DNA of 64,000 nt. It comes from Lepisosteus oculatus. Taxonomy: Eukaryota > Chordata > Actinopteri > Semionotiformes > Lepisosteidae. Under the pieces are notes generated by a model. It was not told where the DNA came from, did no database searches, and was given only the letters and a program-made list of their open reading frames with translations. How positions within the stretch are numbered: position 1 is the stretch's first letter; each line of letters opens with the position of its first letter. Positions 26,065-59,200 of this stretch are shown here, one piece after another. A program made the translations under genes and the position numbers. The stretch lies in NCBI RefSeq assembly GCF_040954835.1, contig NC_090705.1, positions 10,548,001-10,612,000 of the forward strand, written 5' to 3'.

Positions 26065-37197
<11,133 letters not shown>

Positions 37198-39586: not shown

Positions 39587-39643
39587 TTTATTTGCAGGCA
39601 CTGAATCAAAATAGATTTTCAAATATATAAGACAGGCTTGTCT

Positions 39644-39727
39644 TTACAAGTAATGGTTAAAAATTGATTCGTATTTTTCTTGTTTCCCTGACGTGGTCTT
39701 TGGTTCTCCATTTTGCTTGATAAACTC
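39644..39727 (-). CDS. xylA: xylose isomerase exon 14, C-terminus
   Basis: Residues 413-439, [20 protein letters not shown] then SIFNHYL, TAA. The SGKQE and FNHYL ending mirrors bacterial SGRQE and VNHYL. An AATAAA on the - strand at 39587-39592 lies about 50 nt past the stop and probably ends the transcript. Confidence 0.95.
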   Translation of the reverse strand, partial: EFIKQNGEPKTTSGKQEKYESIFNHYL

Positions 39728-42700
39728 CTATAAACAGAAAAGAAAACTTGAAAAACAAAAAAAAACATATACTGGTTTTTAAAAAAATAATATTTTTAGA
39801 ATGCTACTGATTTGTGAATCATGCCTATCAACACAAGAAAAGATAAATAAAAGAGGAAAGAGCTAATATCCTGATGTGATCAAGAAGGTAAAAGTGAGTT
39901 TGCATTTTTTTTTGTAGGACGTGTGGGTATTTTTTCAAGAAAATCATCTGAGAGGCATACGTTCTTTACAGCACTACACGTTAGTGTTAATTAATACCAC
40001 TCTGAGAGTGCAGCAATTAGAAGGGCAGTAAACATTTTAAACTTGTAACTCCAGACATTGGTATTGTAGCACTGGACAGAGGAGAAAAACTGCCCATTTC
40101 AGCCTTAGAATACTGCATTTTGTGTTAAAAAAACTGTTTTTAAACGTATACTTTAGCTTGCTTAGAGCTAGGTTTTTGAGTTGGACATTATATCTGGTGA
40201 TGAAGTAAGAGGTTTTTGTTCTATGTTACAGAAAGTTTAATTTAAGGATAACTGATAAAGTTGACTGGGATTCATTTATGATAATTTCTCATCAGCTAAA
40301 ATCCAATGCATGGCACATGAGGGCAAGGTGAAATTACTTAACTACTTCATTTTTCAAAGTGCCTCAATTATAAACTCACATTGTCGGCAGCCATATCACC
40401 CTGCAACTCACAACTGGCAACCCACTCAAGCTAAGCAGGTGTGAGCCTGGTCAGTACCTGGATAGGAGACCTCCTGGGAAAAACTAAGGCTGCTGCTGGA
40501 AGAGGTGTTCAGGGGACCAGTGGGAGCGCTCACTCTGCTGTCTGTGTTTGTCCTAATGCCCCAGTATAGTGACGGGGATTTTTTACTGTATAAAAGGCGC
40601 TGTCTTTCAGATTAGATGTAAAACCAAGTTCCTGTCTCTCTGTGGTCATTAAAAATCTCATGGTGTTTCTTAAAAAAAGATTAGGGGTGCAACCCTGTCA
40701 TCCTGGCCAAATTTCCCATTGGCCTTTACCAATCACGGCTTCCTAATAATCCCAATCTATGAATTGGCTTCATCACTCTGTTCTCCTCCCCACCGATAGC
40801 TGATGTGTGGTGAGCGTTCTGGCGCACTATGGCTGCCGTCACAACATCCAGGTGGGGGCTGCACACTGGTGGTGGTGGAGGGGGGTCCCCATTACCTGTA
40901 AAGCGCTTTGAGTGGAGTGTCCAGAAGTGTAAGGAAGCGTAATCATTATAACCCTCAGATGCGGAGAACTCTGCTAAACCCGTTGCTGTTATTACCTCCA
41001 GTTCCACTAGCGTGGCTGTGCCTTCCTCCACCATACTGCCAATTCCACTGCTGAAGCTCAGGTAGCGTTGCTGGACAACAGATACAAAGCACACACTCAA
41101 ATGTCACGGTTATGGAGAGTTATAGTACATAATGTGTTTCAAGGAACATAAAAACCTGTAACCAAGTTTGACCTGATCCGTCACTGAGCTGAGCTGTTTA
41201 GCTACGGTATTAGATCCCCTTTGTTCCAGAAACCATGTGCTTGTGGCTCCAGCGGGTCTCATCTCCTCCCTTCTGTGACCCACTTCCTGAACCGCTCTGT
41301 CCAGCTCTGAAACCTGCACTCATCCCCAACAGCAGCCCACTCCTCATATGATTTCTCAGATATTCAAAATAATTAAAAGAAATAAACATAACTTTCATCT
41401 CTGCCTTTACAAACAATAAAGATTGTCTTTTATAAAGGACTTTACCATGCATTACGTAACACACTGCATAGAGCAGAGTTTTGGGGCTCGTAGATCGTGC
41501 CACCATTGCACGTGCTTGTTTCAGGGTGCCAGTTGAATCCTAAAAAGTCTCGATATGACTCCTTCAAGTCTAGGCTACAACAGAACCCGGCTGTGGTGAC
41601 CCACCGTGGGCTGGGCCTCCTGGGATTGGCAGGGCTCGAGTCTGCCAGGGCAAGCCCAGCGCGCTACCCAACCTTCCAAGCCGCAGTGAGGTTGCAGTGA
41701 CACCTGGGAGAGACTCATCGGTCAACGAAGCCCAGCCCTGCTATCAGCATTGCAAGACTTGCAACGTTCTGAATAAGGGGGGTGGGATGGCTCAGTCCAG
41801 TGTATCTTTCGGAAGAAAGCGCAAATTGGTCTTCATCCCTTCCGTGCTGGTACTGTTCTGTCCAGGACTGGTGCTGGACCTCAGCACTGTGAAGCAGACT
41901 TGTGCCTCCCCATCTGGCTCAACGTAACAATCATACGAGCACAATTTCCCTCCGGGCAATGGGCGCACAGTACCTGCAGCATCTGAGCAATCACGCCCTC
42001 CTCGATGATCTGCACCGCGCTCCTCAGACCCCGAGCGAAGGTGTCCATGGCACCCACGTGTGCGATAAACAGATCCTCCAGGTCCGTAGACTCTCGCCGT
42101 ACTTTGGCGTCGAAGTTCAGCCCCCCAGGCTGCAGGCCCCCTTGTTCAATTACACACTGGAAAGCACCACAGAAATGCAGCTGGTGGTTTATACTGTATA
42201 CGTCAAGCGAGGTTGTATGTTTATTTTTTTTCTGTTTGGAAACTTGTACTGAAACAGAATCAAAGCTAAAGTGTGAATGAAGTTGTCTCTGTTAAACTCC
42301 CTCTCTTTGGTCCCTGATTTCTGGTTTGGATTCTAACACTCATTATCAGTCAGGCAGTGCTTGATATGCCTTATGTCTCCCTTCCAAGTAAATAACAGGT
42401 ACCACAATATCTCTTAACAACAGACAGAGACGTCACATACATGTAAATGTAACACAGGCAGTGGACTGCCATTCCTCACCTTCATCACCGTAGTGGTGTT
42501 CTTGATGTCCATAGGGAACTGGTCTGTGTCCCAACCCAAATCAGGAGACCCAGTATTAGAGTCCACTGAGCCAAGCATACCAAACCTACAAATGCAGGCA
42601 ACAGTTTCTATGACAACCAATTCAGCTAAACCTGGTAAAGCAGGCATGTTACATAAACCTCCTGCTCCTTTTACAGCAAAAAAAAACTTACTAGAGCTCT

Positions 42701-45700
42701 TCCTTATTTACCAATTCCCCATTTTCAGCATGTAGCTCACAAAACAGCTTCTAATGCAGACATCTAGTTGGGAGCATTCAAACGCATCACAGAAAGGAGT
42801 CAACAAAAAATGAAAAAATAAAAACAGAGTATGCCTCTCACCACAGCGCAGTGGATGGTTCGATTAACGAACATAGCAAACAGGCACACAGCATTCTCCT
42901 GTGGGTTTCCAAAGCCCGATGGTGTAAGATAGCACAAGAAATATTTTAAGAGTACCTGACTGAGGGAGAAAACACTGCTCCACTTACGCTGAAGCCATAA
43001 TGATGTCATGCTCGTAAGAATGTCCCGCCAAAGTGGTGTGATTCGGTTCAATATTTAACTTGAAGTAGCTGTCAAGCTCAAAATGCTTCAGGAATCCTAT
43101 AACGCTCATGGCATCTAGGAGCAGCAGACAAAAGATGACAAATCACGGAGTACAAATAATCAGAGAATCAGAGTTTTGACCTACTACATTGGTCCTATAA
43201 GCCTCCTTTATTACAACGCTGAAAAAGTGGTTAAACTTAGTTCTGAATATCTGTGTGTGAAATGAAGTAAAGCACATGATCATTCGGTACAGCAATTCCA
43301 CCTGCTTGCTTGCAATGAGACCAGCTGTCTCTCATGCTTCCCTTTAATTCTTAGAGGACACAAGGCAGGACTTCACCCAACTGGGATGAATGTCCACGGC
43401 AGGGTGCAGACACTCAGACACACATTCACTCACACAGGAACACGATTCAGACAACTTCAGTTAACTTGGACAGTGTGACTTTGGACTGTGGCAGGAAACC
43501 AGAGCACCCCGAGAAAGCCCCTGGGGAGAGAGGGGAACATGGAGCAAGCTACACAGAGCTAGCATCGCCGTGCGCAATCGAACCCAGGACGCAAGCGCTG
43601 TGAGCCAGCAGAAATAGCTACGCCCACCGTGCCACAACAACAGAAATTCTGCAAAAGAAAACGCAAAGCCTAGGATCTAAGTGCCAAAAATATCTGTAGT
43701 CAAGCAGCATGCACTGAGGAACAAGCTCTGCTTCGTGACCTAAAACCTTGATGCAAAGCACAAGCTGTTTTCTTACCGTAATCATATTGATGTTTGCAGG
43801 GCTCTTTAGGCTTGGGCTCGATAAGAAACTGGCACTTCAGGCCAATCTTCTCTTTGTACGCTGCACAGAATTGAAATAGGCAAAGATATCTGATCAGTCT
43901 AGTTAAGTGCCTCTACCCCTGCTGAACAATCTTTGAATGGGTCACTCACCGATGGCCATTCTGAAAAAGTTCGCCATGTGCTTTAATTCTGCAGCTACAT
44001 CGGTGTTGTGAGGAGAAAGGTAGCCCTCCCTGCCACCCCAGAACACTGCAAAATTAACCATGGACACATACTGTAGGTATTCACAGAATGATGTTCTTCT
44101 TATTTCATTACACAATTAATTTTGTTTCATGTGGCACTCCAAACAACCATTTGTTTTTCCTGCACATGATGAAATCTTATAATCAACACGCAAATTACAT
44201 TTAAAAATTTCACATTAGAATTCTTATACATATTTTCACCAATATATCGATCCAATATTTCAATTCAAAGAGAAAAAATACTTTAACATTTTCGTCTGCA
44301 ATACAATATGTTCAACATATATAGCCTGTAAACCAATGTTTTCTGTAACATTTTCTTATGAATACTGTCATTTTAAAAATAATGATGCTTTGCAAAGACA
44401 TGTTCTACAACATGAGGAGAAATAGGTGTTGAAATTTTGATTAGCATGGACATCTGGATCGTATTTGTTTTCTTACATGACCTTGACTGTCTTTACTAAC
44501 AGCTTTAGTGTGGTCACCTGAGAAGCAGTCCTTACCAAAGTTCTCTGCTCCCAGTTTCTTGGCTATTTCCAGTCCTTTCTTCAGCTGGGCCCCAGCATAG
44601 GCGACCACATGGGCATCAGGGTTAGTGGCTGCTCCATTCATGTATCTGTTCTATTAAAAGGGAAGGTATCTGAAATGCCATCTCATGCCTGATTTAGGCA
44701 GACTTTTACTACCTTCATGTTTAGCTACAAAGATCAATTAGTCACCCAGTATTGCATAACTTGAGTGAATACAGACAATTTTCATAACTCACAAATCGTC
44801 TTCTGCTTTAAGGACATAAAGTCCTGAAAATCTGTTCTGCTCTAGTTATATACTGTATAAATCACACCTATTGTCTTATCTATTGATACATACATGATAT
44901 ACTATATATTTTTTTCTGTTAAAATCTTACCTTTATGCCTACAAAGCTTTCAGAACAACACAGGTTTTGCTACAGCTATGCACAATAACGTAGGAGCAGA
45001 CATGTGTCAGAAGGGTTTGTAGCCTTTTATTCTAAGAACATCTGCAGATTTTTCTTAAAAAATACCTTTTCTATCATTTGCGTTGTAGGAAAAGCACAAG
45101 AAATTGATGTTCTGCAAAAAACAACAGTGTTGGATAAACCTCTAACCTGATCTGTTACTGACGTTTTCGATTTAATGTCTTTTTTATTCTTATTATACAA
45201 GAACGAATAAAGTAAGGCTATTATTGATTGTCGCAGTTCTCTTATTAAGACACTTTTAGGTTAAAAAAAATGTCCACAATACTGTCCATCAGTAAAATTA
45301 TGCATTCATGAGGACTGATCTCAAATGTTTCTGATTGCGATACAGAGCTGAGTTTTGACCTGGGGTGAGCGAAGAGGTTACAGGTGGCCCAGAGGACTTT
45401 GATCCCAGTTTTCCTCTGGAGCTCCAGGGCCAGGTCAGTGATCTCATCCAGATTCCTGTTAGTCTCCTCCAGTGTGCCGCCTTCTGGGGCCAAGTCTCTG
45501 TCAGAGGCAGAAAAACACAATTTCAATCTACAGACAGATGCAGGAGAGCACGACACTCCTGACGTTTACACAAACATGTGTGTCTGCTGCCAGTCCAACA
45601 AAACCTTCTCATTCATAATTGACTCAACAAGCATCAGTAAGTCTGGTTACTCATTGGAACCACTACTGAGCTCACTTTAAAAGCCACCTTCATAATATTT

Positions 45701-48700
45701 TTCAATTCCAAAAGAGTTAAATAAAATGGATTACTAACACAAAATCACAAAGAGCATGGTAAGGGTTGTCCATATTTTAAACATTTAAAAAAATGTTAAA
45801 AACTTAAATATGGAAGGAACATTAACAATAATTGCAGATGTATACCCAAGACTTTTTGAAATTTGCACATTTGCAACATTTGTACAGGGAATATAAATAT
45901 TTTTATAAAAGGTCAATATAAACATGTATTTTATTAGTCAATAAATGGTCACAGAAGCCAGCACTAAAGGTTGAATTATACCTGTCATGGAAGGTGTAAT
46001 ACTTTACCTGGAGGAAAAAGGAAAAAAAATCAATTAAAACTTAAATTCACAGGTTTACTGTGAATTAATGATAAGAATTTATCTTAAAAAATGAAAATGA
46101 CTAATTTTAATAGTAAAAATGTCAATTTAAACACATGAAATCTGTGATTTAATCTAAAATCTGTTGTTAGCATATATCTGGACCTGTTCTATTACAATGT
46201 TTTCTGAAAGGACAAAACTGTAGATATTTTAATATCTGTTGGACACAATTTTCACTTTTAGGCCAAACGGTTATTTTTACAGCTTTGTAGAAACAAAAAG
46301 AAACAACTAAACTACTTCTATTCACAAAAAACGTATTGTGGCAGGTTGACCTGCAAGAGTTCAGTAATGACCTAGGACCTACCACTAGAGGGCTCCTAAT
46401 CAGTCTCAAGCCTGGCTCACCTGTCAATAGGTTCACCTGTGGTGTATAATTGTTCTATTTTTGGAATGGAACTCAGAATTCTCACACAGGGTTTAGTCAG
46501 CATAACCTGTGTGATTGTAAAGGCGTGGCACTGAAGAGATTTTGCTTACCGACGTTTTATGTACTCTAAATCTCTGTTTTGTATAGAGACTTAATGAAGG
46601 ACCTTTACAGGTCATTGATGGAAGATTTGATTAAGCTGCTGAAGGAAGGACCCCTTTGCCCATTCCACACAGCCCGGTAAGTTCTGGGGTTGGAGCCGGG
46701 GCTCGGCAGTCTGATGGGACCCAACCTATTGGTGTAAGAGTGGGATCAAGCAGGCCTCCAGGCCATCGATTTTGACCCCAGCACTGTCCCCCTTGGGGTG
46801 CTGCAGGTGGTGTGAAGAACCCATTCACCCCTGGACCCCCTGTATCAAGAGGGAACCTAACTGGTTCGACAGCAGGGGGAACTTTGGACACCATTTGTAC
46901 TCTGACCTGCACACCCTCCTGCTTCAGGAAATAAATAAATACCTGTGGCAGGAAAGGAGTGCACCACATCACCCACATCAGAAGAGCCTGAAGTGGTACC
47001 TAAGGTAATAATCTTCATCATTGTTCGATGTGTTTTATATGCACAGGTCTGCATTATAGAGCTACAAGCGAGGATCCCTAACAGTATCATGTTGGATGTG
47101 CACCTTGGGATATTTTTCATGGACAGGTGCTTTAAATAAAGATTCTACCATTGGTACTAACTGCAAATATGTGCTGCTGGTGACAAGATGATCTTGCAAC
47201 CAGATGAAAAGTCTTAACCGTTGAATTTTTCAGAACTCCACATCTGTGTGGACTTACACCCAATTTTGTGAAGAATTCAAAAGCTGCATGCATTCTTCTC
47301 TTAGCTGTTTCCATTGAGTTTTTTCCATCGTCCCAGGGCCTTTTCAGTGTGGGAAATCCAAAGGGATCAGCTCCTGAAAGCCATAAGAAATTCCTTTTCC
47401 TTGAGGAAGCCAAAGTGAGCACAATAATCTATGAAACTGTATATATTACCTATATATGCAGTACTGTGACTGTATAAACACGTATTTCAAAAACACTGAT
47501 TAATCAGGAAAAGAAGAATAGCTTTTCAGGCTGTGAGGGTAATGGCAGCTTCAGGCAAGATGGCAGCTCTGACCTGAACTACATTCCCCAGAATGCTGTG
47601 AGGTCCTGCTGCCTTCAGTCACCTGAAGACTGCTGGTCAGATCATGGTTGAAAGACCAGGGAGCCAAGGCCTCCAGGAGAAGAGAGGAAACAGAAAGCAA
47701 ACCCTCTGTGGAACTGACTCTGTGTTTTTGGCAAATGTCTCAAAAAAGAGGCTAAGGTTTTGAGAGTAATTGTAACTAGAGTTATACTAGAGGGGCGTTG
47801 AAGAAACTGAGATATGATTCTGAAGTTTTTGTTTTGTTTTATTTTATTTTGCTTGTGAGGTTTTAGTTCTCCCTCACCACTGTAACTTTAAAAAGCACTA
47901 GTTTAGTACCTTACATCTGCATTTGTGTCTGCCTTCCAGGGACGGGACCCAGCTATTAAAATATCACTTGCTACTCTAACTCTAAGCCCCCAGGTGTGTC
48001 AAGATAATATCAATACTTGCCTTGTCTTGCTCTCAAAACTGCACGACTCTAGTAGCCTATTCTCATATCCAACACACCAAACCAACACCTGTGTTAGGGA
48101 CAGGAGGGTCACTTGGTGCAGTGGGAGACGGATTTCACTATCTGCATTCCTTCCTTGACAGAGTTGTGTAGAGAAGTCGCAGCAACGGTCAGTGAAATAA
48201 GTTTTAATTTGTGACAAACAAAATGCCACAGAGAAGGCGCACAAGGTTTATAACCCACAATTCCTCCTCTAAGCAGTGTCAAGAGAGAGTTTTCTAGTCC
48301 AAGCATAGCCATCGTCACCCTATGTTATTACCATGAATGGGTGTTTATGAGTGAAACTTTACCAATCATACTGAGATCATAGATAATATTTTCACTTACG
48401 GCCCAGTGGCTATTCCTGATAAGGTTACCTCCATCTTTCCGCTACTCCTGAAATGTCAGCAGGAATCAGTTTAAAATGTACTCAATCTAGGTGAGATGAA
48501 TGAGCCTGGCCCAGGGTCAGAGGTGAACATTTCTCTGCTGTGTCCACTGGCAATCTGATGACTCACTAACATCATCAGCTACACAGCTACATGCCGCCTA
48601 TATTGTCTGGTAGTGGAGCTGTTTGAAGGTCTTACCAGTTCCACAGAAAGAATGCCAGTAACAGACAGAGAACCTCAGCCAGTCTTCCATTGTCCTCCCA

Positions 48701-51700
48701 AGTAGGACCTATACAGCAAAAATGAAGTCTTGTTTATTAAATATCATCATTAACAGATTAGATATTGTGAAAGCACATTAAAGACAATCAATAACTGAGC
48801 TAGAACTATGAAAAGAATGCATCATACAGCATATTCAAAAGAATCATTTTGACTACAAATAGCCAACAAAAATATGTTTGCTAAGTTGTTATAGAAGCTA
48901 AAATGTGTGCAGTACTGACATGTCATTCTATAAGGACAAGCTCAGATATCGTAATGAACATGCAGTTTGGTCAAAGACCTGTCATTTACAAGTAAATAAA
49001 ATGTGCTTCAAATGTCAAACTGAAGATATTAAAGGATTCCATAAATGTCATCAGAGTAACGAGAAAGAGTTAAACAAATGCTGAGTGTTCTAACCATCTT
49101 CCATTACTTTAACCCTCCAGCAATCCAGAAGGTACTTCCACCTGCAAGGATGTGCTCTAAAAGACCTTGCATTATGTTGGAAAGTATAGACAATGCAGGC
49201 CTGGCTGAGGGTTTGAATTCAAGGTAAGGAGCTCAAGTAGCTCAATTTGGTTAACAAGAGCCAGCTTCATAAATGAGTTGCTTTAAATCTTATGTGATGT
49301 CCCTCTCACTCAAGGTGTTCTACAGGAGCTGTTCTGGGACATTTTATTATTTATATGCCAGCTCTCTGTCAAATTATTCAAAAACATGGACTTGGGTTTC
49401 ACCGCTGTTATGATGATGATGCTCTAATTTATTTGCAGAACATATCAAATGCCCCTGCTACAGTTTGTGCATGTTACAGACGCCTGTCTGACAGTAAGGT
49501 AACTTAAAGCAGATACAGACTGACGCTATGCACATAGGCTTCTAACAACAACTTGGCAAACGTAATGACTTCGGTGTTGCTGTTGATGGTGCTGAAATAA
49601 AATCCTAGGCTTAAGGTAGAAACATTATTGTTACTCTTTGCCTTGTGATTTGAAGTTTGTGTTACGAATGTCACAGTGGTATCCTTTTCCAAGCAGATAA
49701 CTTTGCTTGGTAAAGGGTCTTATGCAGATACTGAAACACTGATGCATCTCTTTCTCCCATTAAGATTAAACTACTGTGACACATTTCCTAACCAAAACCA
49801 CTCTGCATATAACTTCATTCCTGTATAAAAAGCACTGGATCCCTGTAAAATATACAATGGATTTCAAGGTCACTGAATACTCGGGTTTCAGGCTATCTTA
49901 AGGCCTTCATTTTGTTTTAGTTCTGTCTGCCTTGTTCATACAATCCTATACCAATCTTGACAATTAGCAGGTGCTAACTGTACAGGAGTCTCCTTGAATG
50001 TTGCAATTATTATATTGGAGTCAATATACTGTACATGTAAGTGGAATACTTTATCTGGGCTGCACTGGGGAAAATTCCAGTCATCTTTGTTGATATATAT
50101 TGTAAAGTATCGAATCAAATCAAATCTAATTGAATGCACTAGAACATATATGGGCATGTTCTTGCTGGTACAGTATGTCCTTATGGAAACGACTGCACTT
50201 TAAAGTTTATGTGATGCCAACAAAGACTTGTTTAAACAAGGAAAAGATTAAAACATTTCATTAAGACCATGCTACGCAGCTGTGAATCCGTTTTAATGAG
50301 CGCATAGTATGTGTGAAATACATAATGGTCTGTTTTTCAGCAAGCTGAATTTAAATTTCCCATTTAAACACTGTAATATGCATGAACATTGTAAAATGGA
50401 GCTTTTGTCACCAGTAGGTCTGAAGCTATTATGTTATCTTAAGAATCAAAAGAAAACCACACAACCACTGAAGTGTGCATCTCGATGAGAAGTAACACAG
50501 ATTTGAAGAGTGGGTTATACCATCATGATGTTTATCACACATTTACAGCAGCAAAGAAATTATAGATGTGCAAGTGTTTGTCTCTTGAGAATAACCTACC
50601 AGTACTAAGAGAATTCACTGGAACAGTTATGTCAGTAAAGAACTTCTGGATCAAGCTACTGGCTCTAAAAAACCACCAACATAAAACTCACCTCTTCTGC
50701 ATTGTAGTACTTGAAGCACAAAACATTTCCTGCTCCTCCATCAGGCACATAGGTAATTTTAGAAATACCTGGTAAGAAGTAAGATAGACACTGGTCCTTT
50801 ATTTGATTTAGCACAGTTTAAAATGGACTGAACTAAAATTATTTTTGTTGGTATTGTTTAAATATGATAGTATGGTAGCCAAGACTTTTTTTTTTGCAGA
50901 TTGTTTTTGTGTAGTTCAGAAAGATAGTTTATTTAAAATTACCATAGTATGATAGAGATACACATGCCATAACTATTACCACCCAATAACTTACAAAAAT
51001 ACCCACTTATCTTAGTATTCAATTTCTACTCCTGTTTAATATCTCCTCCTATTTCAAAAATTTCACAACAACATGACCACCTATGAAATGCATAGGAGAG
51101 TGGGAGTTTAATTATAAAACAAGCTCTTAATAGTCAATATTTTCATTCGTTATCATTGCAATTAAAGACAGTAGATTTTTTACCCATCACACAAATATAA
51201 GACACAAAAAATGTCCCAACATTTTGACACAATTATTTTGCCTTCAGCAGCTTTGCAATGATTAGATCCCGCTATATACTGTACATCTTATGTTTTAAGT
51301 TAAAGTGAAACCATAATATGGAGTTGTGAAACTGCAGTTTGAGAGGAGGATGAACAGTAATCTTGCACTTCTGCTCTCTTGTGTATATACAGTACATACT
51401 CGCCTCTTGTGCACAACACACACAGACTGTATCTTCTCTTGTCCCCTCCCTACACAACTGCTTCACTCTTGCAGCTGTCTCCCTGGGTCATTCCCTGGCA
51501 AGTGAGGGGGCTTGGAACATCATGACCTTACAGCCAGGGCTGCTATTTCCTCAGCCAGGAGAGTTAATGCCGAACACTAAAACTTCAAGAATGGAGCCCT
51601 TTATAGCTGTCATCTCATCTCATCTCATGTCATCTCATGTCATCTCATAAAATCGAATTTGACCACCCTACTAAATTGACTTTCGGCTTCTTGGTTATGA

Positions 51701-52825
51701 AGAAGCATCTTTAGTTTCGTTGACACAAAAGCGAGGAAATGTTCACGTTTTTGATCATCTGGAAAACTACAGAGCACTGGAGCCACACACGAACTCATAG
51801 ATAAACACTTCACTGCATTACAGCTCTTTCTTATCATTGTCTTTTCCAAAGTTATGAACTCTGTGGTGCTTGAATACTAAATGCCTAAGGCGCCACCACA
51901 TACAAAAATGTTACAGAAATGACACAGATCAGGTATTTTGGTAAGGTAAAGTGAACACACTGTGCAGTCAGACTTGGCTGTACGCGTCTTACTCTCAACA
52001 AATCCAAAAGCAGCTTCTGGAAATGAAGTTTTTTTAAGGCAAAAAGCATTAAAGCCAATTCAAAGCAAAGTGCAAGCGAGTAGAAGATGACCCTATTTAT
52101 TTATATTTGAACTGTTAGGTTGTTGGATATGCAGCTCTTAAGATACAAATTTGCCATTGTTCGTGATAGTTATTCATGCACATCCTGGACAGGTAAAACC
52201 CTCAGGAGGGCCTTTCGTACTGAGAAGACAAATCTGATTTAAATGTGGTGACAATGGCATTTGTCCTCGGCACCTGGTATTTCTGCATGGGGCAAAACAG
52301 GAGAAAATTACACAAAGCACTTCTCCACTCCCAGTAACAGATCTCGGGGAAATTTTACACTTTTAAAACTTTTTTTAAGTTTCGAACAACCTTAATTCTA
52401 TCTACAGAGTACTACCAGTTACGAAAAAGTTACACAGAAGCTTACAGTATTTTTATATCCGCTGTGACCTACGGTCATTAATTCCTAAATACTTTTCACT
52501 GTCAGAGTAACACCCCAAGTAGTATTTTTTTAAAATACAATAAAGGCCTACGCCTACGTCCCCCCTTGAGCTTGTCAATAATAGTATCTTTATTCGTACT
52601 TTGTGTTATTTATAAAGGCCACCAAATAAAAACACACCATACAGATCGTGTACAGTCTTTCGGACGTGAGAGCAAAGAGACGATTTCCTTTTCACTTTGT
52701 TACAGTACGTCAGCGTTCTCGGTTGCTCTGATGCGTAGTGCACGCCCAGTTAATTAAACACGATAAGAAGTACAATTTTTACAAATACACTGTTACCTAC
52801 CACGAAAATACTCGACATCTGCCAT
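39644..52825 (-). CDS. xylA: D-xylose isomerase, 14 exons, complete
   Basis: Class II-type D-xylose isomerase (D-xylose to D-xylulose, divalent-metal TIM barrel). Joining 14 exons gives 439 aa; E. coli XylA is 440. Signature [10 protein letters not shown] is at 103-112 and IEPKPKEP at 234-241. H104, D107, E235, K237, E271, H274, D299, D310, D312 and D342 match E. coli H101, D104, E232, K234, E268, H271, D296, D307, D309 and D339 with a constant offset of three, so the active site is intact. Other conserved blocks are [34 protein letters not shown] and [15 protein letters not shown]. No signal peptide or peroxisomal tail is seen, so it is probably cytosolic. All 13 introns are GT-AG and in phase. 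The gene lies in tandem between rnf144b and sqle. Mammals lack it. The symbol is borrowed from bacteria. Confidence 0.95.
40384..40950 (+). mobile_element. 5S rRNA-derived SINE, copy 3 (most complete)
   Basis: In xylose isomerase intron 13, antisense to the gene. The head GGCAGCCATATCACCCTG, AAGCTAAGCAGGTGTGAGCC and CTGGATAGGAGACCTCCTGG follows 5S rRNA through the internal promoter region. A tail of about 450 bp ends AAAGCGCTTTGAGTGGAGTG and a short A/T-rich end. Structure agrees with SINE3-type elements of fish. Confidence 0.92.
40996..41070 (-). CDS. xylA: xylose isomerase exon 13
   Basis: Residues 388-412, [20 protein letters not shown] then LVELE, aligning with QRYSGWNSELGQQI of bacteria. 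Acceptor GTTGTCCAG, donor GAG/GTAATA. Confidence 0.93.
41974..42156 (-). CDS. xylA: xylose isomerase exon 12
   Basis: Residues 327-387, [20 protein letters not shown] then [17 protein letters not shown]. Asp342 is the last metal ligand. Donor CAG/GTACTG, phase 0. Confidence 0.96.
42480..42585 (-). CDS. xylA: xylose isomerase exon 11
   Basis: Residues 291-326, [20 protein letters not shown] then [15 protein letters not shown]. It has metal ligands Asp299, Asp310 and Asp312. The usual GDxQxGWDTDQ reads [11 protein letters not shown]. Donor AAG/GTGAGG. Confidence 0.96.
42988..43114 (-). CDS. xylA: xylose isomerase exon 10
   Basis: Residues 249-291, including [20 protein letters not shown]. Glu271 and His274 are metal ligands. 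Acceptor GCTCCTAG, donor GC/GTAAGT, phase 2. Confidence 0.96.
43355..43634 (+). repeat. fish SINE-like repeat, copy 2
   Basis: In xylose isomerase intron 9. It has TTTGGACTGTGGCAGGAAAC, GAGCACCCCGAGAAAGCCCC, GCAATCGAACCCAGGACGC and CCCACCGTGCCAC, the typical 3' half of this repeat; the 5' half is decayed. Confidence 0.8.
43777..43860 (-). CDS. xylA: xylose isomerase exon 9, metal-site Glu
   Basis: Residues 221-249 with [17 protein letters not shown]. Glu235 binds both metals and Lys237 helps the hydride shift in characterised XylA. The 89-bp intron before it is the shortest in the gene. Confidence 0.96.
43950..44045 (-). CDS. xylA: xylose isomerase exon 8
   Basis: Residues 189-221, [15 protein letters not shown] and [19 protein letters not shown] is invariant in the family. 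The following YETLLNTD of bacteria reads YLSPHNTD here. Donor G/GTGAGT. Confidence 0.95.
44536..44645 (-). CDS. xylA: xylose isomerase exon 7
   Basis: Residues 152-189, [20 protein letters not shown] then [12 protein letters not shown]. It is close to the bacterial GAATNPDPEV and ATHKLGGENY blocks. Donor G/GTAAGG. Confidence 0.96.
44646..45359 (-). other. xylose isomerase intron 6
   Basis: A 714-bp AT-rich intron. Nothing is recognised in it. Confidence 0.6.
45360..45497 (-). CDS. xylA: xylose isomerase exon 6
   Basis: Residues 106-152, [20 protein letters not shown], then [20 protein letters not shown] and P. It contains metal-site Asp107. Acceptor CTCTGACAG, donor AG/GTCAAA, phase 2. Confidence 0.95.
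45982..46007 (-). CDS. xylA: xylose isomerase exon 5, 26-nt microexon
   Basis: Codes VKYYTFHD and two bases of Arg106. It supplies catalytic His104 and, with exon 6, the FHDRD signature. It is flanked by TTTTTTCCTCCAG and GTATAA. Exons 4 and 6 (phase 0 out, phase 2 in) only join correctly through it. Confidence 0.92.
46337..46952. other. GC-rich block of unknown nature in xylose isomerase intron 4
   Basis: About 0.6 kb of atypical, GC-richer sequence bounded by direct TGTGGCAGG at 46337-46345 and 46944-46952. A perfect inverted repeat GCAGGT-TG-ACCTGC lies at 46341-46354. No coding homology was recognised. It may be an old mobile element. Confidence 0.35.
47258..47373 (-). CDS. xylA: xylose isomerase exon 4
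   Basis: Residues 59-97, [20 protein letters not shown] to FEFFTKLG. It includes the AKRRM helix shared with plant enzymes. Donor GGT/GTAAGT, phase 0. Confidence 0.95.
47374..48635 (-). other. xylose isomerase intron 3
   Basis: A 1.26-kb intron. A ZNF143-like motif lies at 47578-47596. The frames seen here do not match known proteins. Confidence 0.5.
48636..48708 (-). CDS. xylA: xylose isomerase exon 3
   Basis: Residues 35-59, [20 protein letters not shown] then FCGTG. It matches the LGK.M.DW and YWHTF block. The usual Thr after Trp-His is Ser here. Acceptor GCTGTATAG, donor G/GTAAGA, phase 1. Confidence 0.94.
49220..49900 (+). mobile_element. decayed L2-type LINE, reverse transcriptase remnant
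   Basis: In xylose isomerase intron 2, antisense to the gene. Broken frames keep GVLQ....ILLF at 49314-49360, a YDDDALIYL version of the catalytic YADD box near 49410-49436, and near 49800-49880 a block like FIPV.KAL...KIYNGF, typical of L2 LINEs. Many stops and frame changes show it is dead. Confidence 0.7.
50692..50768 (-). CDS. xylA: xylose isomerase exon 2
   Basis: Residues 9-34, [20 protein letters not shown] to YNAEE, aligning with the N-terminal strand of XylA (E. coli VRYEG and FRHYNPDE). Acceptor TTACCAG, donor GAG/GTGAGT. Confidence 0.94.
50769..52800 (-). other. xylose isomerase intron 1
   Basis: A 2-kb intron. It carries a short TCATC-type repeat at 51610-51648; no exon or other repeat is recognised. 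Confidence 0.5.
51610..51648. repeat. TCATC/TCATG pentamer repeat
   Basis: Tandem 5-bp units: CATCT repeats, then alternating TCATG and TCATC. Confidence 0.85.
52801..52825 (-). CDS. xylA: xylose isomerase exon 1
   Basis: Codes MADVEYFR and one base of the next codon. The start is the only ATG that joins in phase to exon 2, and YF(R)GI aligns with the plant/bacterial N-terminus (YF..I.K). Donor G/GTAGGT, phase 1. Confidence 0.85.
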
Positions 52826-56253: not shown

Positions 56254-59200
56254 CTGAGAGAAGAAAGCATGAGAGGTTAGGGTATCAGTGCCATGAAAAA
56301 TTCAGAACAGCCTTCTGAAGACAGGCTCAAACACACGGTTCCATTTTATGCTAGAATACAGAAAAACACTAACTTAATAAAGTCTGTGAAAAGGTTTACA
56401 ATATGGTGAGATTTCATGAGTGCAGAGAAAATATATATTAATCAAAAACATAAGTAATTAATGGAGCTAACAAGAAAGACTAATTTTACAATATGGGTAT
56501 GAAAATGTCATGCACATACTCTTCCAATTATATAGCATTTTCTGACACTGAGGAAAAAAGATTTAAGAAGGACGAAAGAATAACAGTCCAGTCGCTCAAA
56601 TATTTGGTTTGAGAACTCCCATATAACCCACACGAGAAGAGGGTCTGGAAGGACTCTACCCAGAACTTTTTTAAATTTCTCAAGACAACTGCCTAAGATT
56701 TAAAGGCAGTAAAACGCCAAGACTGCCAAAAGCAAGTATACAATCGACTGGAGATGACCACTAGTTTTCCCCTCACCTGTGTTCGATTCCACATCACTGA
56801 GGCTCTGGAGTGCCCAAGTTTATTCCTGCATGGGCCTTTATCGTAATGTCTCAGAAATATGTCACCCTGTTTGATAAAGAGAGATATTTTTAATTATAGA
56901 TTCTTAAAAGTCGGAATTGGGTTTAGAGAAAACATGCAATACATTATTAACAGCATGGTGTGTTGCAGACATCCTTTTTTCCCCCCAAGAGGAGTGCATT
57001 AGGCATGATTATATATTGTCTTTTCCAACTCTCCATCTCTACCAAAGAGCGAAAGTAGAAAAACATATTTTCATATTTCCGGCATAAAACGTTAAGTATG
57101 ACGATAGTATTAAGTCAATGCAATGTTTTAGTTTACTCAGTTGGAGCAACATTTGACCTTATAAGGAACTTTATAAGAACATCCTTATAAATTGTGGATA
57201 ACGTAGATAAACGTGTACATTGGACCGTTAGAATGTCATATTTCTATGATCTGGTATTGAATATAGGTACACTCACAGAGCTGTTTCAGTACAGGTGTCT
57301 TCCAGCAGACACTTTAGATCTAGTGCTCCAAGACAGGTGAGCAGCCTGATAACCTCCAACTGCAATACCTCCTTAGGGCCAGAGCCAAAATGGATTAAAT
57401 AACGATTCAAAATTCCCCTTCCCTACTCTAAAATCCATCCATCAATGTTCTAAGCACTTTATCTAAATACAGGCTCTGGGGGAGCCAGAGCCTATCCCAG
57501 CAAGCAATGGGTGCAAGGCAGGATACACCCGGGGTGGGACGCCAGTCCATCGCAGGGCACACACAGACACAAATACACACGCACACAAACTCACACCACA
57601 GCCCCTTTTCCCACAAGCCAATTAACCTACAGTACCAGCACGTCTTCGGAGTTTGGGAGGAAACTGGAGCACCCAGAAAACATTCAAACTCCGTGCAGAT
57701 AGCGCACCATTGTGCCACCTTGCCTCCATCCACCCCCTCTTAAATACAAAAGAAAAATGTTGCAACCTTACATCTAAACACTCCAGACAGTACCAACAGA
57801 AGGTGTGCTTGCAGTTCTTGCACAGCATTTGTGCACATCCTTGGTTTCGCTCTATGTACACGGCACACCCGGGACACTGCTTGATGGGAGAGTCTGCTTC
57901 ATCGCTGACCTGGATGCTGCCGATACAGAATTTTGACAATCGCTGTGCTTAGATTTCATGTGGGCTTGGAGATGATTAGCCATTAGTTCACGTCTCGCAA
58001 ATGTATGTAACCTCCTCCAGCTCCTACGTTTCCCCTAGATATGCAGGGGGCGCTATTCCCGACTTCTTCAGTTACATTCTCATCACAGACACTTTGGATT
58101 GTTTCAGCCTGCCCCCTGCCCAGTGGAAAACCTGCTTTCCTACTGTCTGACTGCATACACAGCTTGATCAAGACACAAAAATGTCAAATAAGATCTTTTT
58201 TTGTCATCAGTCTCACCTGAGTGCTTTAAAGTCTTAGACACTTTGCATTGTTCTGCCATTCCCACTCAACATTTTATGCAGAAACACAGTACTTTGGCAA
58301 CTAGATAAAAGTTTTGCTATTTATTTCAAATACATTCAGTAGAGGTTGTTAGAAAAGTAGACAACAGTACTGAAGACTCTGAGGAAATTGTTGATGGTTA
58401 CTACATACTGTACATGTAATCTAAGACATATGAACAGCAATCTGTTCCTTTTATACTTACGACATGAAGAAAACCTTCAGATTTTTTTAACATAATAGAA
58501 TTGTGAATTTAAAAATAAAATACGATTCTTTCCACAACGAAACCAAAGCGATGTCAGGAACATACCCGTTCTCATTAATATACCAATGAATTTCAATATT
58601 CATTCTTCCTAAATAAATGAAGGTGTTTAATGTAATGAACAATGTGCTTAACTAGGACTCCAGGAATGGGTGTTTAAAATGCATAAGGCGACAGTAATCA
58701 AGCGACAATGTTTTACTCACCCATTATCAAAGGAAGGCCGTTTCAGCGGCTGGCTTTTGGAACAGGAATGCCCCTGACGCCAGTCACTCTTACACACTGA
58801 ACAAAATACCGTGCGACAGGCCGGGCAGAGCACAGACCCCGGCTGGCCGTCACTGCGTGGGTCAACACTGCAGGCTGCTTGGCACTTCAAGACAGGACAC
58901 CAGGTCTTACTGGGATCCAGCTGCACCCCTAGAGGGAAGAAAGAAAAGAAACTGAATGAACAAGGTATGGAAATTAGCAGCAGTATCGCATCATCACTCT
59001 CATGGTGGCTGCCCCAACAAATGCAGTCTGTACAGAATGTGCCCGTTTCCTGTCGCAGTTTTTATTGTATGCAAAAGAACTCAATTAGATACGTTGTTTG
59101 GTTCACGCAGGGTACTGCAACTGAATTTGCACAAAAAGGAAGCTCGGGCTGGAATGGTACTATTCAAAACACAGGGGCTCAAAAAGCAGGATTGTTATTC

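Follow-up and report, generated by a model that had tools for sequence, protein, structure and literature searches.

Xylose isomerase is commonly treated as absent from animals, whose free D-xylose is taken to pass through reductases or to be wasted. A 64,000-nucleotide stretch of the Lepisosteus oculatus genome (the window), placed 10.5 Mb along a 44-Mb contig (C10) of a 1.2-Gb assembly in 813 contigs, raises the question of whether a vertebrate can hold a working gene for this enzyme and, if so, what the gene does and where it came from. Judged by its sequence, the locus encodes class II xylose isomerase in full length within a fish genome. It is very probably a functional nuclear gene, single-copy as far as the search sees, and its likeliest origin is an old line of animal XylA kept by fish and molluscs.

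Gene model and active site

The gene lies on the minus strand, a point on which the first-pass annotation was silent, and comprises 14 exons, each found once in the window. Their phases fit into a single open frame of 439 codons plus stop, running from 52825 (the A of the ATG) to 39644 (the last base of the TAA), and all 13 introns have GT-AG ends. The first-pass annotation had proposed this model, and its exon count, coordinates, joints, and 439-aa frame were recovered exactly. Exon 1 (52801..52825, as all exons on the minus strand) carries the start codon, amino acids 1–8, and the first base of codon 9, and ends at a GT donor; exon 2 (50692..50768) is bounded by AG and GT sites. Trp52, one of two substrate-stacking tryptophans, is encoded by exon 3 (48636..48708) and Trp191 by exon 8 (43950..44045). 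Exon 5 (45982..46007) is a 26-nt microexon encoding the region of the catalytic His104, and Asp107 follows in exon 6 (45360..45497). The metal ligands are distributed over exon 9 (43777..43860; Glu235, together with Lys237), exon 10 (42988..43114; Glu271 and His274), exon 11 (42480..42585; Asp299, Asp310, and Asp312), and exon 12 (41974..42156; Asp342), while exons 4 (47258..47373), 7 (44536..44645), and 13 (40996..41070) continue the splice-joined frame. Exon 14 (39644..39727) supplies the C-terminus and the TAA stop, and an AATAAA signal on the same strand (39587..39592) has its first base 52 nt past the stop codon.

The spliced protein matches TIGR02630, the xylose isomerase equivalog, at 647.9 bits against a cut-off of 533.25 (E = 7.5e-195), over profile positions 1–435 of 435 and fish residues 6–439. 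The class I model TIGR02631, in contrast, covers only residues 93–348 at 119.6 bits, below its cut-off of 447, and the protein is thus assigned to class II rather than class I. Its Pfam domain is PF01261. Among PDB sequences, 45 distinct entries are matched, the best being the class II enzymes 1a0d (E = 2.3e-150, like the profile match far outside what chance would give), 1a0c, and 1a0e; solved class II chains align over almost the whole length.

Residues His104 and Lys237, which we take to be the catalytic histidine and lysine, are both present. Against a provisional E. coli XylA sequence, the offset is a constant +3 from residue 17 to 418, in keeping with the earlier claim that the active-site residues keep that spacing. 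The fish protein also agrees with the PDB chain of Piromyces XylA at all 13 active-site positions checked, at a constant offset of +2. PMC6954610 names nine of the positions, those of seven metal ligands and of the tryptophan pair, and the other four come from general background on the enzyme family; at one of the 13 a single bacterial row reads X. Following the ligand sets given in that paper, the fish protein has the M1 ligands Glu235, Glu271, Asp299, and Asp342, the M2 ligands Glu271, His274, Asp310, and Asp312, and the stacking pair Trp52 and Trp191 (PMC6954610).

Conservation extends beyond the active site. There are 89 near-invariant columns (at least 98% identical across 87 bacterial rows), and the fish protein keeps 87 of them, departing only at Phe188 (Tyr in 87/87 bacterial rows) and Thr275 (Ala in 87/87). 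When each bacterial row was left out in turn, it showed at most three departures, with a mean of 0.39; the two of the fish are therefore few, yet above the bacterial mean. The codon for Phe188 falls at exon 7/8 and that for Thr275 in exon 10.

A predicted route for xylose

The protein is expected to be a cytosolic enzyme with two divalent metals and a TIM-barrel fold, the fold and a possible tetramer being suggested by homology to solved class II enzymes. It would convert D-xylose and D-xylulose into each other through a hydride shift assisted by metal, and from the D-xylulose the host xylulokinase could supply the pentose phosphate pathway with xylulose 5-phosphate. Activity, metal use, cell location, physiological substrate, and vertical descent are all inferred.

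The first-pass annotation had supposed that a xylulokinase stands ready to take the product, and a gene for one is indeed present. The bacterial xylulokinase profile TIGR01312 gave no more than three weak matches, all of them within long open frames of contig C16, and a search of the assembly with PF00370 gave three on C15; neither identified xylulokinase, hence human XYLB was taken as the query. This yielded eight matches, 48–82% identical, lying in order over 75 kb of contig C6. Stop codons occur within the reported stretch of 4/8 matches; local re-alignment of the eight loci resolved ten distinct stop-free exon segments (53–84% identical) that span residues 126–480 of 536. With a xylose isomerase gene and a xylulokinase orthologue in the same genome, both steps from D-xylose through xylulose to xylulose 5-phosphate appear to be encoded, and the animal may use the pair on dietary xylose. 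The three matches on contig C16 resemble FGGY kinases and score equally; they lie on both strands of a stretch of about 20 kb (C16:9820521-9840825), each in an open frame of 658–665 codons, and are possibly recent copies of a retrogene.

What the enzyme is for can be proposed with less assurance. Mammals are not known to have a xylose isomerase, and a plausible but tentative account is that fishes keep a vertically inherited ancestral animal enzyme, lost in mammals, for salvage of D-xylose (from the diet or from their own proteoglycan linkers) into the pentose phosphate pathway without xylitol as an intermediate. It is possible as well, although we rate it as rather doubtful, that the intact gene has a main job other than growth on dietary xylose, acting on glucose and fructose or on xylose released from host glycans such as proteoglycan linkers. 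Xylose isomerases generally act on glucose too, and the sequence points to no particular sugar pool. The pocket residues Trp142, Thr144, and Val189 are those of wild-type class II enzymes, which by mutagenesis prefer xylose; this match suggests xylose rather than glucose as the favoured substrate and leaves the source of the xylose unfixed.

An intact vertebrate gene alongside an ordinary xylulokinase makes the use of xylose isomerase by an animal directly testable in fish, and the matter bears on xylan-rich aquaculture feeds.

Descent of the gene

Three sources might be considered for the gene: recent transfer from bacteria, older transfer, and vertical descent within animals. At least 590 of 594 candidate bacterial stretches were confirmed as relatives, of which the best 80 were kept for the tree, so that the bacterial sample is biased towards similar sequences. 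The tree set of 90 rows included these 80, four of the 185 matching plasmid records, and four PDB chains (of five available, 4xkm being left out). Among the best 80 of the at least 590 loci, identity to the fish protein is 50–57% over almost the full length, and the loci belong to Planctomycetota, Verrucomicrobiota, Bacillota, Bacteroidota, and others; the highest bacterial identity, taking these loci with the other tree rows, is about 57%–58%. The fish row sits on a long end branch of 1.09, and none of the starred sets (of up to half the rows) in the 90-row tree holds it. Low identity and a long, deep branch together make recent transfer from any sampled bacterium unlikely, as the first-pass annotation had held, and with the thirteen introns also weighing against it this origin was rejected.

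The tree thus speaks against recent transfer from the sampled bacteria; on ancient transfer it gives no verdict. For horizontal transfer in the distant past, from bacteria into animals or an early fish with introns gained later, there is a precedent of sorts: in the same 90-row tree, the fungal Piromyces enzyme and a plasmid copy from Bacteroides form a pair at 100/98, and transfers of this gene into eukaryotes therefore do occur. The fish row behaves otherwise, however, lying on its long branch within no starred set and at no more than 57%–58% identity to a bacterial sequence (best 80 of at least 590 loci plus other tree rows). Great age is further suggested by the thirteen introns and by a Phe188 shared with a mollusc peptide (see below). 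Once a provisional Arabidopsis sequence was added, moreover, the fish paired with the plant at 83/85, a grouping that is unstarred and is a lead only. On this evidence, we consider an old transfer unlikely. Relatives were also sought on viral contigs: a protein query gave seven pattern matches and an alignment query 99, none of them a relative, and a DNA pattern for the Phe188 stretch had no match there.

The preferred reading, by which the gene most likely comes from an old animal XylA lineage kept in fish and molluscs, draws on other animal records. In PMC5007756, Arctic charr embryo reads are mapped to Atlantic salmon EST contigs, and 'Xylose isomerase', with six contigs, is tabulated among the genes expressed more strongly in the AC morph (logFC -1.55, FDR 0.0035); the name is those authors' label, and the record was compared by name. 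For octopus ink, PMC10142993 prints three peptides that it assigns to a 'Xylose isomerase-like' protein of Crassostrea gigas. They derive from an in silico trypsin digest of the identified proteins, and they hence show database sequence, octopus or oyster, rather than spectra. One of them, LGAENFVFWGGR, is identical to fish residues 183–194, Phe188 included, and none of the 89 other sequences in the tree set contains the string. Another of the peptides, FSVCFWHTFR, matches the fish protein at 7/10 residues, and the third is by eye unlike XylA (PMC10142993). A scallop protein, XP_021350524.1, is likewise named 'xylose isomerase-like' at 41% peptide coverage in PMC12357810, whose authors allow for contamination from adjacent bands.

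Phe188, common to the fish and a mollusc peptide, hints at a single animal lineage and may be a mark of animal XylA; orthology of the salmonid and mollusc records to the fish gene is a lead. The first-pass annotation described the enzyme as typical of bacteria, plants, and some fungi, which proves too narrow: salmonid EST contigs and mollusc records carry the name, and with animal copies, fish included, already recorded by name, its picture of rarity was overstated. The fish gene extends a known family, already listed under this name in other fish and in molluscs. Many biochemists would be surprised to meet it in a vertebrate, yet the gene is not new in kind; it would be a clear example of an ancient metabolic gene that disappeared in the line leading to mammals.

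Two further records were set aside as support. In the isopod study PMC6798089, the peptides printed for xylose isomerase resemble phosphoglucomutase by motif, and across phosphoglucomutase, glucose-6-phosphate isomerase, and xylose isomerase the peptides seem, again by motif, to have slipped one label out of place. In that case the peptide of the isopod xylose isomerase would be LGAENFVFFHPR, with Phe at 188 and another Phe replacing the invariant substrate Trp. The sponge study PMC4772301, so far as its available text goes, concerns a microbial domain only. A term search of the termite protist paper PMC5569483 found no statement on animals in the text covered, and among the open-licence papers searched no title or abstract opening dealt with a vertebrate xylose isomerase gene as such.

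Integrity, genomic setting, and known counterparts

A gene may look intact and yet have lost its expression or its selection in Lepisosteus oculatus, as would follow recent silencing. How quickly neglect would show was gauged by simulating neutral drift from this coding sequence with substitutions only, in 2000 runs per level. At 0.01, 0.02, 0.05, 0.1, and 0.2 substitutions per site, a stop-free frame persisted in 61%, 38%, 10.5%, 1.5%, and 0% of runs, respectively; the full set of 87 conserved residues came through in 13% and 1.7% at the first two levels and in 0% at each of the other three. Leaving indels and splice sites out of the simulation makes this a lenient test. Taken with the intact frame, the outcome makes long neutral neglect of the gene unlikely. 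Silencing recent enough to leave the sequence whole is improbable too: frame, splice sites, and 87 of 89 near-invariant residues are all intact, and the simulation leaves little room above about 0.02 substitutions per site.

Downstream, six profile matches mark exons of squalene monooxygenase (sqle) at 26146..32383 on the minus strand, one of which aligns with the human enzyme, 6c6n (E = 6.3e-32), and this neighbour stands as first annotated. Upstream, exons of an RBR E3 ubiquitin ligase lie at 57622..59061, also on the minus strand. Pfam finds IBR domains in two of four candidate ligase fragments, and the PDB relatives of one fragment are ARIH2, ARIH1, cullin-9, and parkin. The earlier assignment of this neighbour to rnf144b holds as regards an RBR E3 ligase with IBR domains, while by its motifs the gene is presumably RNF144-like and may be either rnf144b or rnf144a. 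Within the last intron, on the strand opposite to the gene, a 5S rRNA-like element (40383..40501, plus strand; RF00001 at 45.6 bits, gathering score 38) is probably a 5S-derived SINE; the bases beyond it look by eye like the remainder of such an element. Bacterial contamination of the assembly, as the first-pass annotation had concluded, is negligibly probable, for although the family is mainly bacterial within the collections searched, it is refuted by the thirteen GT-AG introns, and the gene stands between vertebrate sqle and the RBR ligase, carries the 5S-like repeat in an intron, and lies 10.5 Mb into a 44-Mb contig.

A TIGR02630 search of the assembly scored 11 candidates and returned nine matches at E <= 0.001, all nine overlapping nine different exons of this gene; the exon-by-exon profile search thus found no second xylose isomerase copy in the 1.2-Gb assembly. 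Searching the assembly with PF01261 gave three matches, on contigs C12 and C9, and none inside the window, and PF01261 is therefore too weak, exon by exon, to find the gene. Elsewhere in the window, a minus-strand fragment at 1922-2152 looks, judged by eye from a motif, like part of a Tc1/mariner transposase, with no Pfam match at E 0.001. The genome also contains 33 matches to the FISNA domain, known from fish NLR proteins and from some mammalian ones; 27 are on contig C18 (3.1–19.2 Mb), many within open frames some 600 codons long, and this is probably a large NLR gene cluster. The FISNA set, the 5S-like repeat, and the closeness of sqle and xylulokinase to their human counterparts all point to a fish genome.

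Set beside class II bacterial XylA, the fish protein has matching full length, the checked metal and substrate residues, and the same C-terminus; its gene differs in having 13 introns and the protein in an identity of at most about 57%–58% (best 80 of at least 590 loci) and in Phe188 and Thr275 in place of Tyr and Ala. Plant XylA, represented by the provisional Arabidopsis sequence, is identical in 238/431 aligned columns, with common stretches near fish residues 72–85 and 116–132; it has an N-terminal extension, whereas the fish protein has none. Salmonid, oyster, and scallop records, compared through their names and the three printed peptides, bear the same name as the fish gene. The fungal enzyme of Piromyces (XylA, 5nh4), which has found use in engineered yeast, belongs to the same family and corresponds at 13/13 residues with the +2 offset; in the tree its partner is a Bacteroides copy, whereas the fish row has no such grouping.
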